Assembly: GCA_039804165.1 (NCBI GenBank)
Contig: JBDRZZ010000041.1
Location: forward strand, 1-6,965
Origin: a candidate division WOR-3 bacterium
GTDB taxonomy: Bacteria; Hydrothermota; UBA3072
Direction: 5' to 3'
DNA: 6,965 bases
Part shown: positions 1,042 through 6,628 of the stretch, in pieces
How positions within the stretch are numbered: position 1 is the first letter of the stretch
Layout: each line of letters begins with the position of its first letter
Position numbers and translations under genes: made by a program
Notes under the pieces: generated by a model
What the model was told of the DNA's origin: nothing
The model's input: only the letters and a program-made list of their open reading frames with translations
The model's database searches: none

Positions 1042-2004
1042 ATGTTTAGACTAAAGATGAGAATGTTTATATTAATTATTGTCTTGTTTGGCATCGTTTA
1101 TGCTGTTGCAACTATGATTGGAACAATTATGGGAATAACAAACTTTTATTTCTATCTTTTCCTTGCTTTACTTTTTATGTTAATTCAATACATAGTAGGG
1201 CCTAAAATTGTGGAATTGTCTATGGGTGTTAGATATATAGAGAAGGACGACCACCCAGAACTCCACCAAATTATCGAAGAACTTGCTAAAGAAGCTAAAA
1301 TACCAAAGCCAAAGATTGGAATTTCACCTATTTCTATTCCCAATGCCTTTGCCTTTGGAAGGACAAGAAGCGACGGGAGGGTATGTGTTACCGAAGGTAT
1401 TTTAAAAGTTCTTGATAAAAATGAACTTAAGGCAGTTCTTGGGCATGAGATCTCGCACATTGTAAATAGAGATGTCTTGGTCATTACGCTGCTCTCTGTA
1501 ATTCCCCTCTTAATGTATAGAATTGCATGGCATCTCCTCTTCTTTGGTGGTATGGAAAGAAGAAAAGATAAAGGTAGTTATACAGCCATCATTGGGCTTT
1601 TAGCCTTAATTTTTTACTTCATTACAAATTTACTCGTTCTTTATGCCTCAAGAATAAGAGAATACTTCGCTGATAAAGGTTCTGTAGACTTAGGAAATAG
1701 ACCCTCAGCCCTCGCTTCGGCTCTTTACAAACTCGTTTATAGCTCCGCAAAAGCTGATAGAGAAACAATAAAAGATGCTGAAGGATTGAAAGCCTTCTTT
1801 CTTAATGACCCTTCAAGAGCAATAGATGAAATAAGAGAACTTGCCCAAATAGATTTAGACAAAAGTGGAACGATCGATCCTGATGAACTTAGATACATCT
1901 ATTCAAAAAAGGTGAAGCTTAGTTTCTCTGATAAATTACTTGAGGCTTTAAGCACTCATCCAAATATGTTAAGGAGAATAAAAAAACTCTCAGAATATAG
2001 CTAA
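1042..2004 (+). CDS. htpX: HtpX-like M48 membrane zinc metalloprotease with embedded EF-hand loop
   Basis: This 320-residue integral-membrane endopeptidase is predicted to degrade damaged or misassembled membrane proteins, with its active site on the cytoplasmic side as in E. coli HtpX. Two N-terminal membrane segments lie at about 7-30 and 34-53. The zinc motif is HEISH at 135-139 (H135, E136, H139). The third ligand is probably E207 in SRIREYFADKGS, and THPN at 305-308 is the conserved C-terminal motif before the final helix. Further hydrophobic segments lie at about 145-168 and 181-203. Unusually, residues 271-282 read DLDKSGTIDPDE, a textbook 12-residue EF-hand calcium loop (D1, D3, S5, G6, I8, E12). 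It sits between the FFLNDP segment and the THPN motif, which makes the protein somewhat longer than the roughly 290 residues usual for HtpX. The start is fixed by a perfect Shine-Dalgarno site. pcm follows after 4 bases. The M48 call is firm. HtpX versus a close M48B relative is less so. Confidence 0.9.
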   Translation: MFRLKMRMFILIIVLFGIVYAVATMIGTIMGITNFYFYLFLALLFMLIQYIVGPKIVELSMGVRYIEKDDHPELHQIIEELAKEAKIPKPKIGISPISIPNAFAFGRTRSDGRVCVTEGILKVLDKNELKAVLGHEISHIVNRDVLVITLLSVIPLLMYRIAWHLLFFGGMERRKDKGSYTAIIGLLALIFYFITNLLVLYASRIREYFADKGSVDLGNRPSALASALYKLVYSSAKADRETIKDAEGLKAFFLNDPSRAIDEIRELAQIDLDKSGTIDPDELRYIYSKKVKLSFSDKLLEALSTHPNMLRRIKKLSEYS

Positions 2005-2008
2005 TTAT

Positions 2009-2689
2009 ATGATAATTCTTTTCTATCTTCTATTTTTTAGCGCCACGAAAGAAATAAAGGATGATTATTATAGTGCTCGTAAGAAGATGATAGAGGAACA
2101 AATAATAAGAAGAGGAGTAAAGGATACCCTAGTGATAAATGCTATGCTTACTGTAAAGAGACATCTTTTTGTCCCTAAGAATTTGCGGTCTTTGGCTTAC
2201 GAAGATTATCCTTTACCTATAGGATATGATCAAACAATTTCACAACCATACATTGTAGCACTGATGACAGAACTTCTGAAAGTAGAAAAGAAGCACAAAG
2301 TTCTTGAAGTAGGGACAGGTTCTGGTTATCAAGCTGCAATTCTTTCCCTTCTTACAGATTCAGTTTTTACGATTGAGATAATCCCTGAACTTGCTCAATC
2401 TGCCAAAAAAAGGTTAGATAGCTTAGGATACAAAAATGTGTTTGTAAAAATAGGAGATGGTTATAAAGGCTGGAAAGAGCATGCTCCTTTTGACAGAATC
2501 ATTGTAACATGTGCTCCAGAAGAAATACCACCACCGCTTTTAGATCAACTCTCTATTGGTGGAAGAATGGTAATTCCTCTTGGTTCTTATTATCAAGAGT
2601 TAGTTCTTATAACAAAAGATTCAAAAGGAGTATCTACTAAGAGTATAATTCCAGTGAGATTTGTTCCAATGTTAAGAGAAAAAAATTAA
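2009..2689 (+). CDS. pcm: Protein-L-isoaspartate O-methyltransferase, possibly with an N-terminal export signal
   Basis: The enzyme transfers a methyl group from S-adenosylmethionine to L-isoaspartyl residues of aged proteins, which starts their repair to aspartate. Family motifs appear in order: MIEEQIIRRG (27-36), RHLFVP (51-56), DQTISQPYIVALM (74-86), the SAM-binding glycine loop VLEVGTGSGYQAA (98-110), the acidic end of the next strand TIEI (121-124), FDRIIVTCAPEEIP (161-174), GGRMVIPLG (184-192) and VRFVPM (216-221). The length is 226 residues against about 205-215 for cytosolic PCM. The extra N-terminus, MIILFYLLFFSATKE, is a short hydrophobic stretch that could be a signal peptide or anchor, but it lacks positive residues before the hydrophobic run. 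The alternative start is Met27 at 2087, giving 200 residues. Neither start has a good Shine-Dalgarno site. I prefer 2009 because it lies 4 bases after the htpX stop, which suits translational coupling. The gene is co-transcribed with the protease, and a joint role in protein quality control is inferred. Confidence 0.93.
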   Translation: MIILFYLLFFSATKEIKDDYYSARKKMIEEQIIRRGVKDTLVINAMLTVKRHLFVPKNLRSLAYEDYPLPIGYDQTISQPYIVALMTELLKVEKKHKVLEVGTGSGYQAAILSLLTDSVFTIEIIPELAQSAKKRLDSLGYKNVFVKIGDGYKGWKEHAPFDRIIVTCAPEEIPPPLLDQLSIGGRMVIPLGSYYQELVLITKDSKGVSTKSIIPVRFVPMLREKN

Positions 2690-3870
2690 TCGTTATTTTT
2701 TAGGGAACTCTTTGCTATAGTTTTCACCATTTCGTAAACTTCTTTTAAAGGAATCTTCCTTTTTTCTGCAATTTTTTTACAAGATTCGTATTCAGGAGAA
2801 ACATTTATGAGTTTTCCTCTTAAATAAGAGAGCTTCACTTCTGCTTTTCCTAAAGGAGTTTTTATCTTTCTCACTTCCCTATTTAACTTTATCCTTTCTA
2901 TATCTTTTATTCTAACCCCAATTGTGGTTGTCTCTCTAAAAAGAATTTCTGTTAAAAAATGAATATCTTCTTTTCTGCATAAAATAGACAACATAAAGCC
3001 TGGTCTACCCTTTTTCATTTGAATTGGGGTTCTGTAAACCTCAAGAGCTCCTTCTTTAAAAAGCTTTTCCTCAACAAGGGGAAAGAATTCAGGATTCATA
3101 TCATCAATATTTGTCTCAATTAATACCTCTTCTAAACCTTTTTCTTCAAGAACACCTAATATTGCTCTTAAAAAATTAGAATTCCCCTCAAGAATTCTTG
3201 ATCCAAAACCAATTCCAATATTATTAACTCTCATTAAAGGCATACCATAAGAATCTACAAAGTGCCTTATTATTAAAGCCCCTGTAGGTGTTACGAGCTC
3301 GCTATTAATTCCAGTTGAATAAATTGGTGCCTTAGCACGCCTAAGTAATTCTAAGGTAGCTGGAACTGGAAGAGGTACTCTTCCATGCTTTATTACCACA
3401 GAACCCATTCCAACATTTATTTTAGAAAAATAAACTTTCTTTACTCCTAAGAGTTTTAAACCAATTATTGAGCCTACTATATCAGCAATTGAATCAATTG
3501 CTCCAAGTTCATGGAAATGAATTTGCTCTTTTGAAACCCCATGGATTTTTGCTTCAACTTCTGCAAGCTCTTCAAACATTTTTTCGGCTTTTATTAAAAT
3601 ATCTCTATCAAGATTGGATTCCCTCAAAATCTTTTTTATATCCTTAAGTTTTCTTTCTTTCTCTTCCTTTTGCTCTTTTACTTCAAACCTTTTCCCCACA
3701 AAATTTCCCCTTCTTTCTTCCCATATTTCTATATTTGTGCCCCGAGGTAAGATTTTCTTTAACATTCCTTCAAATCTCTTCCTATCCAGTCCCAAGTCAA
3801 GAAGAGCTCCTATAAACATATCTCCACTTATGCCCGAAAAACAATCTATATACAAAATCTTCTCTTCCAT
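2686..3870 (-). CDS. larC: LarC, CTP-dependent nickel insertase for the nickel-pincer cofactor
   Basis: LarC performs the last step of nickel-pincer nucleotide synthesis: it inserts Ni(II) into the dithiocarboxylated pyridinium mononucleotide, forming the nickel-carbon and nickel-sulfur bonds and using CTP. The 394-residue chain shows the family landmarks: YIDCFSGISGDMFIGALLDL (7-26), HFHELGAIDSIADIVG (118-133), GRVPLPVPATLELL (163-176), ELVTPTGALI (191-200), ETNIDDMNPE (252-261), MKKGRPG (285-291) and ETTTIGVR (313-320), with SPEYESC (358-364) near the end. Both halves are in one frame, unlike Lactiplantibacillus plantarum, where larC1 and larC2 are joined by a frameshift. The charged linker at 66-80 is Lys/Glu-rich, whereas many LarC proteins carry a His-rich stretch there. 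The ATG is 2 bases after the larB stop with only a poor Shine-Dalgarno site, so coupled translation is likely. Its stop overlaps that of pcm on the other strand. Confidence 0.95.
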   Translation of the reverse strand: MEEKILYIDCFSGISGDMFIGALLDLGLDRKRFEGMLKKILPRGTNIEIWEERRGNFVGKRFEVKEQKEEKERKLKDIKKILRESNLDRDILIKAEKMFEELAEVEAKIHGVSKEQIHFHELGAIDSIADIVGSIIGLKLLGVKKVYFSKINVGMGSVVIKHGRVPLPVPATLELLRRAKAPIYSTGINSELVTPTGALIIRHFVDSYGMPLMRVNNIGIGFGSRILEGNSNFLRAILGVLEEKGLEEVLIETNIDDMNPEFFPLVEEKLFKEGALEVYRTPIQMKKGRPGFMLSILCRKEDIHFLTEILFRETTTIGVRIKDIERIKLNREVRKIKTPLGKAEVKLSYLRGKLINVSPEYESCKKIAEKRKIPLKEVYEMVKTIAKSSLKNND

Positions 3871-3872
3871 TT

Positions 3873-4634
3873 TTATTTTTTCTCTTTCATTTTCTTTATA
3901 ATAGCCGCAGCAAAAAATCCTGCGTTATACCCACCATCTATATTAACAACACTAACACCTGGAGCACAAGAATTGAGCATTGTAAGAAGAGGAGCAAGCC
4001 CTTTAAAACTTGCCCCATAACCACAAGAAGTTGGAACAGCAATTATTGGAGTATTAGTAAGTCCTGCAATTACAGAAGGAAGAGCGCCTTCCATTCCAGC
4101 AATTGCGATTACAACATCAGCTTTTTTTAATTTTTCTTTTATCCATAAAATCCGATGAATTCCAGCAATCCCAACATCAAATATTGTTTCCACTCCTACC
4201 CCCATTGACCTTACTGTTATTTCACTTTCTTTTGCCACCGGAATATCTGAAGTCCCAGCAGTGACAATCAAAACTTCACCAATTGTCTTTTTTGGATATT
4301 CTCCAATGAAAGCAATAGAGGCTTCAGAATATATTTTCGCTTCAGGATAAATCTCTTTTATTTTCTTTAATGTTTCCTTAGGAACTTTTGTGGCAAGGAC
4401 ATTAGTATGATTTTTTAACTTCCCAATTATCTCTATTATTTGTTCCTCAGTTTTGTTTAAACAATAAATAGCTTCAGGAGCCCCCATTCTAAGTTCTCTA
4501 TGTGTATCAATTTTCGCAAAACCAAGTTCCAAGAAAGGAAGACTTTCTAAAACTTCTAAGGCCTCTTCTACACTTTTCTTCCCTTTTCTAACTTCCTCAA
4601 GCAGTTTCTTTATTTCGCTTTTACTTAAACTCAA
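3873..4634 (-). CDS. larB: LarB, nicotinic acid adenine dinucleotide carboxylase/hydrolase
   Basis: LarB carries out the first step of NPN cofactor synthesis: it carboxylates the pyridinium ring of nicotinic acid adenine dinucleotide at C5 and cleaves the phosphoanhydride, releasing AMP. The C-terminal part is PurE (AIR carboxylase)-like. Counted from the chosen start, VLIVTAGTSDIPVAKE lies at about 122-137, DVGIAGIHR at 153-161, VIAIAGMEGALPSVIAGL at 175-192 and PTSCGYGASFKGLAPLL at 201-217. LNSCAPG follows at about 220-226. Its cysteine (C223) is probably the counterpart of the substrate-binding Cys221 of L. plantarum LarB. The N-terminal HREL and GAPEAIYC motifs are also family-typical. 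I chose TTG 4634 (253 residues) over the longer TTG 4670 (265 residues). A GGGAG sits 8 bases upstream of 4634, and the extra residues MILKVIEAGVWI are unlike LarB and arise inside the larE coding region. The gene overlaps larE by 14 bases. Confidence 0.94.
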   Translation of the reverse strand: MSLSKSEIKKLLEEVRKGKKSVEEALEVLESLPFLELGFAKIDTHRELRMGAPEAIYCLNKTEEQIIEIIGKLKNHTNVLATKVPKETLKKIKEIYPEAKIYSEASIAFIGEYPKKTIGEVLIVTAGTSDIPVAKESEITVRSMGVGVETIFDVGIAGIHRILWIKEKLKKADVVIAIAGMEGALPSVIAGLTNTPIIAVPTSCGYGASFKGLAPLLTMLNSCAPGVSVVNIDGGYNAGFFAAAIIKKMKEKK

Positions 4635-5445
4635 TATCCATACTCCCGCTTCTATAACCTTCAAGATCAAGAGTTACATACTGATAGCCAATCCTCTTAA
4701 AACTTGAGATTATACTTTCTCTTTGAGAAAAAATCTTATCAAAATCTTTTTCTAAAACTTCTATTCTTGCTATTTTCCCGTAATCTCGAACACGAACCTG
4801 ATTGAAGCCTTTCGCTATTAATAAGTTTTCTGCTTCTTCAACTTTTTTTAATTTCTTTTTTGTGAGTCTTTCTCCATAAGGGAAACGAGTTGCAAGACAA
4901 CTAAAAGAGGGTCTATTCCAAGATGATAATCCCAATTTCCTGCTCAATAACCTTATTTCTTCCTTTGTAAATCCAACTTCCAGTAACGGACTTTTAACGT
5001 TAAGCTCTTTTATGGCTTTTAACCCAGGTCGATAACCCTTTATATCCTCTACATTTGTGCCTTCTATAACCTCTTTTAATCCCCTTTTTTTCGCTATTTT
5101 TTTTAAATTTTTAAATATTATTTTCTTACAGAGATAACATCTATTAATTGGATTCCTTTTCAAATTATCTTCAGAAAGAAGCGAAAAATCAAGCACTTCC
5201 CATTTACACCCGATTCTCTCTGCCATTCCTTTTGCTTCTAAGATTTTCCTCCCAGGGATCAATTCAGATTTCACGGTTACGGCTAAAACTTTTTCTTTGC
5301 CTAAAAAATCCATAGCCGCCTTCAAAAGAAAACCACTATCAGCCCCCCCAGAAAAAGCCACAAGAACAGATTTATATTTTCTTAAAACTTCCTTAAGTTT
5401 TTGACTTTTCTTATTTTTTTCTGTGAAAATTTCTAACGATTTCAA
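4621..5445 (-). CDS. larE: LarE, ATP-dependent sulfur insertase of NPN cofactor synthesis (three-Cys type)
   Basis: LarE adenylylates the two carboxylates of the LarB product and replaces them with thiocarboxylates. The 274-residue protein has the PP-loop ATPase signature SGGADS (32-37), GTNVEDIKGYRPG (129-141), and the C-terminal GYRSGSMD (263-270). Cysteines C103 and C106 (NRCYLC) and C183 (PSFSCLATRFPYGERLT) form the three-Cys set that in the Thermotoga maritima enzyme binds a [4Fe-4S] cluster carrying the donated sulfur. In L. plantarum only the equivalent of C183 (Cys176) is present and is sacrificed. This LarE is therefore predicted to be catalytic rather than single-turnover. The start is a TTG with at most a weak GGTG ahead of it. 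The SGGADS loop lies about 6 residues deeper than in L. plantarum, so a slightly later start cannot be excluded. It is the first gene of the operon, directly behind a strong promoter. Confidence 0.94.
   Translation of the reverse strand: MKSLEIFTEKNKKSQKLKEVLRKYKSVLVAFSGGADSGFLLKAAMDFLGKEKVLAVTVKSELIPGRKILEAKGMAERIGCKWEVLDFSLLSEDNLKRNPINRCYLCKKIIFKNLKKIAKKRGLKEVIEGTNVEDIKGYRPGLKAIKELNVKSPLLEVGFTKEEIRLLSRKLGLSSWNRPSFSCLATRFPYGERLTKKKLKKVEEAENLLIAKGFNQVRVRDYGKIARIEVLEKDFDKIFSQRESIISSFKRIGYQYVTLDLEGYRSGSMDIEFK
4643..4647 (-). promoter_or_regulatory. Ribosome binding site deciding the larB start
   Basis: GGGAG on the minus strand, 8 bases ahead of TTG 4634 and inside the end of larE (the codons for RSGSM). 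The longer candidate start at 4670 has no such site. Confidence 0.6.
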
Positions 5446-5605: not shown

Positions 5606-6628
5606 TTAAAGCCTGAAACCACAGCATCCCTCGCGTTCTTTTGGCGTATAAAGGATGCCAAGGCTTAATATTCCATTCACATGAGGTCCTTTATCCCCAA
5701 ATAATTCTTGAAAGTTTGTGGAGATGCGACCCTCAAGGAGAAACCTAAAATCATAGGTTCTAAAAAGGGCTAAGCCTCCTGCAACCTCAAGAGCCATTCC
5801 TATTCCAGATTCGTAATAGCCCCTTTGAATGGCGGTTAAAGCTAAACCCCCTCCTAAATAAGGAGAAAAATCTTTCCTACTAAAGAAATAAAGAATAGAA
5901 ACACCAATTTTACTTTCGGTCATGTTCCTGTTCCCTAAATATAAAGTATCCTCCTCCTCCAGAGGTAATACTAAAACTCTAGCATTCAACTCTCCAACTA
6001 AATTTGGAGTCTCATACCAGCCTACAAATCCATAACCATAAAGAGTTTTCCCTTGAACATCTCCATACCCTGCAAAAAGTTTTGACACGTTTAAAACTAT
6101 TCCACCAGCATAAAAACTTTTCTTTCTCTTTTCGGCTTTCCAAACTTCCTCTTCAGTTATTTTTTCTATTTCGACAGTCTCTCCCACCTTTTTACCTTCT
6201 TTAATACCTTTCACAAGGCGAGATACACAAACGTCTAAATCTTCTGGGGTCGTTGCTGTCGCTTTATCTGAAAAAAATATCTCACCTGTTTGGGATTTAA
6301 TAGCTACTGCTGAAATGATATGTTTTTCACCTAATTTAGTAATAGAACCAAAAACTACTTCTTCTAAACCAAGTTGTCTTCCAATTTGAGCTGCACATCC
6401 TTTATCTTGACATTCAACTTTTTCTCCCAAACTCCTCTCAATCTCTTCCGGTAAGACTAACCTATCTCCATAAGAGCTAAACTCTGTTCTTATAAGTTGA
6501 TAAATTGCCTCTCCTACATCAGTTTCTACTCCTACGAGCTTAAAAGGAAGCAATCCTATTCCTTTTGCGAAAAGAGAGATAGATAAAAAAACCAAAATCA
6601 AACTCAACACTACTTTTAATTTTCCCAT
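5606..6628 (-). CDS. Exported protein: TolB/CsgG-like N-terminal domain fused to a predicted outer-membrane barrel
   Basis: The precise family is not recognised. The 340-residue protein starts with a signal peptide: MGKLK, hydrophobic 6-20, likely cut after SLFA at residue 21. Residues 23-150 look like the TolB N-terminal/CsgG/LpoB type of alpha-beta fold: IGLLPFK at the first strand, an amphipathic helix, then CQDKGCAAQIGRQLGLEEVV (73-92), FGSI, and a segment ending in KSQTGEIFFS. The CX4C pair C73/C78 before a GRxLG helix is a recurrent feature of this group and could form a disulfide in the periplasm. A charged linker (about 145-170) leads to residues 171-330, which alternate Gly and aromatic residues (YAGGIVLN, YGYGFVGWYE, YLGGGLAL, LEGRISTNF, LSLGILYTP) as in an 8-strand-like small beta-barrel. 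The C-terminus (GCCGFRL) lacks the terminal Phe typical of BAM substrates. The ATG has a perfect AAGGAGG. Monocistronic transcription is likely. An envelope-assembly or structural role is inferred only. Confidence 0.8.
   Translation of the reverse strand: MGKLKVVLSLILVFLSISLFAKGIGLLPFKLVGVETDVGEAIYQLIRTEFSSYGDRLVLPEEIERSLGEKVECQDKGCAAQIGRQLGLEEVVFGSITKLGEKHIISAVAIKSQTGEIFFSDKATATTPEDLDVCVSRLVKGIKEGKKVGETVEIEKITEEEVWKAEKRKKSFYAGGIVLNVSKLFAGYGDVQGKTLYGYGFVGWYETPNLVGELNARVLVLPLEEEDTLYLGNRNMTESKIGVSILYFFSRKDFSPYLGGGLALTAIQRGYYESGIGMALEVAGGLALFRTYDFRFLLEGRISTNFQELFGDKGPHVNGILSLGILYTPKEREGCCGFRL

Follow-up and report, generated by a model that had tools for sequence, protein, structure and literature searches.

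A conserved EF-hand loop beside the active-site plug of an HtpX-like membrane protease, and the possibility that it senses calcium

Why should a membrane protease carry an EF-hand, and what might calcium do to it there? To our knowledge, intracellular Ca2+ signaling in prokaryotes has few defined targets. Most of the described prokaryotic sites of the Dx[DN]xDG kind lie outside the cytoplasm (PMC3123361). The question is raised here by one gene in a window of 6,965 nucleotides (by which we mean the whole stretch of DNA that was analyzed) from a candidate division WOR-3 bacterium. That gene, at 1042..2004 on the forward strand, encodes 320 amino acids, which an earlier note, made from the letters alone, had read as an HtpX-like M48B membrane protease with an EF-hand loop.

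The family assignment holds up: the protein matches PF01435 (Peptidase_M48; Pfam) with an E value of 6.2e-41, and the zinc ligands and the plug motif are all there. The HExxH zinc motif is HEISH (residues 135-139; 1444..1458, +), whose H135, E136, and H139 are invariant in 26 diverse HtpX; the third zinc ligand, also invariant, is E207 in REYFAD (1660..1662, +); and the HPx4R active-site plug motif is THPNMLRR (residues 305-312; 1954..1977, +), in which T305, H306, P307, and R312 are present in 150/150 close homologues and in every HtpX aligned. An AF2 model of the whole protein, built with ten sequences (pLDDT 71.5, pTM 0.76), has the M48 fold, matching human ZMPSTE24 (Z 16.9 over 255 residues, rmsd 3.9), yeast Ste24p (Z 15.9 over ~255 residues), and, in Foldseek, the HtpX fragment 3cqb. 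NCBIfam HtpX models match as well, each below its equivalog cut-off, which is a threshold for naming and not a biochemical criterion (the best, PRK02391, scores 224.6 bits vs 341). Judged by these profiles, the protein is HtpX-like and outside the curated HtpX equivalogs.

No second HtpX was found in this genome besides the open reading frame at 1042-2004. The genus also includes a candidate division WOR-3 MAG (L001, which has the same coordinates as G001). Long HtpX paralogues occur in G001 of this genus (L252:1074-3071, 665 aa) and in Aenigmatarchaeota (L253:714-2402, 562 aa); both are extended at the C terminus by a further region, membrane in character and perhaps OB-like, and a zinc-ribbon-like segment (CPNC...CPRC) lies at the N terminus of the former. 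No EF-hand loop was seen by eye in either.

How good, then, is the EF-hand? The loop, DLDKSGTIDPDE (residues 271-282; 1852..1887, +), lies where it had been placed, between FFLNDP (252-257) and THPN (305-308). Together with the next Leu, it satisfies the PROSITE pattern PS00018 as written out here. When the protein was shuffled 20,000 times, the pattern turned up anywhere in 0.06% of the trials; the loop is the only such site in the protein, and there is no second EF-hand. Taken alone, the protein does not reach a Pfam EF-hand gathering cut-off: EF-hand_5 gives 1.5e-5 and 24.6 bits, just under its 25.9, and EF-hand_1 (8.5e-4) and EF-hand_6 (1.4e-3) are weaker. When nine family members were combined into a profile covering residues 238-320 and searched against the PDB, EF-hand proteins were retrieved: CDPK at 2.3e-6 and 3.6e-6, centrin at 1.6e-4, calmodulin at ~1e-3, and lanmodulin at 3e-3. 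Every match at E < 0.01 is an EF-hand protein by name (CDPK, centrin/caltractin, calmodulin, sorcin, lanmodulin, or EF-hand domain protein), and in the alignments printed, those to two CDPKs and to centrin, all 12 residues of the loop line up without offset. Elsewhere in the genome, a PF13499 search gave a single match, in an RNase R-like open reading frame, and that one is spurious.

The loop sits in an insert of ~35-45 residues that ordinary HtpX do without: from the NP/DP segment to THP, there are about 45 residues here vs ~10-20 in ordinary HtpX of the same phylum. The close relatives that bear the insert are 53-72% identical and come from WOR-3, UBP18, Omnitrophota, and Aenigmatarchaeota; they were found in 9/147 genomes of the window's own phylum, 137/334 of the Omnitrophota sampled, 6/156 Aenigmatarchaeota, and 1/6 genomes of the UBP18 group. 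With Thermoproteota (below), they bear out the suggestion that relatives in other prokaryotes, archaea included, share the insertion.

What has been kept in these loops is quite particular. Across 150 distinct close homologues, the window protein among them, position 1 is Asp in 149, position 3 is Asp or Asn in 149, position 5 is Ser, Asn, Asp, or Thr in all 150, position 6 is Gly in 149, position 8 is Ile or Leu in all 150, and position 12 is Glu in 147; positions 2, 4, 7, 10, and 11 are variable. Mean column entropy is 0.35 bits at the ligand (key) positions, 2.2 at the other loop positions, and 1.8 in the rest of the insert, and PS00018 matches at the loop site in 141/150 homologues and elsewhere in 0. 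Ligand columns that stay fixed while their neighbors drift argue for selection for metal ligation, and by the measure of these alignment columns, the EF-hand loop is under selection. Random loss of the ligand residues, which the earlier note had offered as a refutation, was not seen (D1 in 149/150, E12 in 147/150).

Four members of the set, all Omnitrophota, have altered loops: L157 (G6 to H), L179 (E12 to D), L182 (D1 to R with E12 to S), and L185 (D3 to G with E12 to A). The metal site would thus be dispensable in places, and these four are natural test cases of the need for it.

The AF2 model puts helices on both sides of the loop, an entering (E) helix at residues 257-268 (1810..1845, +) and an exiting (F) helix at residues 280-288 (1879..1905, +), with a pLDDT of ~70 in the EF-hand region. 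Folded alone, the 83 residues 238-320 give the same helix pattern at low confidence (pLDDT ~60-62), and Foldseek with this fragment model did not find an EF-hand match. Because the pLDDT values are modest and the fragment has no such match, the helix-loop-helix is predicted, with moderate confidence, and not established; the earlier note had asked for flanking helices, and these appear in the model.

Does the loop occur farther afield? In Thermoproteota (the phylum of L009), 27 distinct HtpX, at 31-37% identity, have a canonical loop in the same place, reading DLDxDGVLDERE or a near variant. These EF-hand paralogues (L188, L206-L226, and others) share the loop position with the window protein, but their E helix is longer by about four residues and their C-terminal tail is longer too; an EF-less HtpX is also present in at least some of their genomes. 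In another archaeal form (L076-L081 in Aenigmatarchaeota; L230 and L243-L245 in Thermoproteota), the loop is cut to a short non-binding turn, and both helices are kept. The idea that the EF-bearing Thermoproteota are ammonia oxidizers was rejected: archaeal AmoA was found in none of the EF-bearing genomes and only in two with the loop-deleted form, those of L230 and L243, the two tested among L230 and L243-L245.

Once the insert columns are left out, the resulting tree sets four groups apart, each split from the remainder by a branch: the bacterial EF clade, the archaeal EF-bearing plus loop-deleted sequences, the archaeal EF-less sequences, and ordinary HtpX. The data do not reject a topology that joins the two EF groups (p-AU 0.24), so that a single gain of the EF-hand with several losses is possible; the tree being unrooted, two independent gains would be compatible with it too.

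The surroundings of the gene have less to say. Four nucleotides downstream of htpX starts pcm (protein-L-isoaspartate O-methyltransferase; 2009..2689, +; NCBIfam NF001453, E 9.8e-75), which is probably co-transcribed with it; the two genes adjoin in the congener L001 as well and not in other members, and the finding does not depend on pcm. Gene neighbors of the EF-hand htpX differ among members, and no conserved calcium-related neighbors were seen among them. Viral contigs gave one short HtpX-like match, covering residues 96-145 only; the plasmid matches listed are HtpX, with identity of at most ~36%. Upstream of htpX, about 640 bases (~403-1041) have no open reading frame of 60 aa or more; this region could hold an extended leader or the remains of a gene, and no Rfam families or tRNAs were found in the window.

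Three genes that lie side by side on the reverse strand (2686-5445), all assigned by NCBIfam, belong to the nickel-pincer nucleotide cofactor: larC (2686-3870), larB (3873-4670), with a TTG start overlapping larE, and larE (4621-5445). LarE has a CxxC (RCYLCK) and a third Cys (PSFSCLAT), a pattern that we take to resemble the Fe-S type of LarE. Farther along, also on the reverse strand (5606-6628), is a predicted secreted protein of 340 aa. By eye it might be an outer-membrane barrel, and at 1e-3 neither NCBIfam nor Pfam gave a match.

If the loop binds a metal, what would it be for? EF-hands usually work in pairs, and a lone one may bind weakly. Glu at loop position 12 favors Ca2+ over Mg2+, which points to Ca2+ as the ligand here. 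In BepA, H246 of the HPx4R plug coordinates the zinc as its fourth ligand; the plug is autoinhibitory, proteolysis requires that it move, and H246N behaves as a deregulated enzyme (PMC7950410). The motif is found throughout M48, HtpX included (PMC7950410). In the window protein, the EF-hand site comes after the third zinc ligand, E207, and before the C-terminal plug (H306-P307-x4-R312), and the insert leads straight into that plug: the F helix ends 17 residues ahead of H306, and a short linker with one further helix bridges the distance. The CDPK alignment covers query positions 25-67 (residues 262-304 of the window protein), including the helix after the loop, and its sole gap is one residue before the loop, with none after. 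Since an alignment to a pair of EF-hands runs on through the helix before the plug, we infer that the plug hairpin takes the place of the second, pairing EF-hand, and from there, Ca2+ binding would be expected to move the helix that leads to the plug.

The mechanism that we propose is then simple to state. The unpaired EF-hand loop would bind Ca2+, binding would reposition the F helix and the helix leading into the plug, and the shifted helices would alter the readiness of H306 to leave the zinc. By analogy with E. coli HtpX, the EF-hand would be on the cytoplasmic side, so that the protease could be gated by cytoplasmic Ca2+, such as might leak through a damaged membrane, and membrane damage would be just when HtpX is needed. 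In short, the protease may sense intracellular calcium. That the unpaired EF-hand in the catalytic domain binds Ca2+ and controls the adjacent HPx4R plug is, we think, an even call. The larger picture we offer tentatively, as something that might be so: calcium-gated membrane proteases of this family would be widespread among uncultured bacteria and archaea, with an intracellular EF-hand that pairs with the autoinhibitory HP plug, releases it on Ca2+ entry, and so couples membrane damage to the clean-up of membrane proteins by way of a prokaryotic Ca2+ signal.

The main rival is a plainer reading, and a quite conceivable one even if we would not bet on it: Ca2+ (or Mg2+) is bound constitutively and only stabilizes or folds the C-terminal part, with no sensing at all. 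This would suit a loop that is conserved with no constant partner in the genome, and it has a precedent in a thermophilic archaeal subtilisin, where a 25-residue insert carries a Dx[DN]xDG loop that serves folding (PMC3123361). The archaeal relatives without the loop keep both helices, which means that the hairpin can stand without metal. What speaks against a purely structural site is where the insert lies, directly before the autoinhibitory plug and not elsewhere in the domain. Resting cytoplasmic Ca2+ is low, moreover, and such a site would need a high affinity that is unusual for an unpaired EF-hand. A stabilizing role would leave the same conservation as gating.

Might the helix-loop-helix instead be a docking element or scaffold whose EF-like sequence no longer binds metal? 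The archaeal proteins that keep their helices around a short non-binding turn do suggest a metal-free role for the hairpin, and the ligands are altered in four bacterial members, but within the EF-type clades, this would leave unexplained why only the metal-binding positions are conserved (0.35 vs 2.2 bits), and we consider it unlikely. Chance likeness to a short pattern, of the sort that does throw up EF-like strings, is already refuted by the conservation of the loop, as well as by the rarity of the match in shuffles, its confinement to one site among the homologues, the second archaeal set, and the profile match.

Calcium-gating through the plug, the reading that we prefer, would put a conserved, apparently cytoplasmic EF-hand in fusion with an enzyme whose plug is known to be autoinhibitory, and it makes a sharp claim, that Ca2+ alters HtpX activity via the plug, which is testable on one protein by a few point mutations. 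The earlier note knew of no calcium-regulated HtpX; the open-access literature searched gave no description of an EF-hand in HtpX and, among the papers listed, nothing relevant on HtpX and calcium.

Set beside known systems, the protein is in part quite familiar. It shares with E. coli HtpX and other M48B HtpX the HExxH motif, the Glu that is the third ligand, the HPx4R plug, the N-terminal membrane helices, and the M48 fold, and it differs from ordinary HtpX in the longer stretch from the [N/S]P segment to THP, which holds the EF-hand. Like BepA, an M48 metalloprotease of E. coli, it has a zinc site and an HPx4R plug with a fourth zinc ligand (PMC7950410); unlike it, BepA is periplasmic and has a TPR domain, and calcium is unmentioned in that account (PMC7950410). 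With CDPK, centrin, calmodulin, and lanmodulin, it has in common the canonical 12-residue loop, the profile match, and, as predicted, the flanking helices, but whereas those proteins have two or more EF-hands, here there is a single one, inside a membrane protease.
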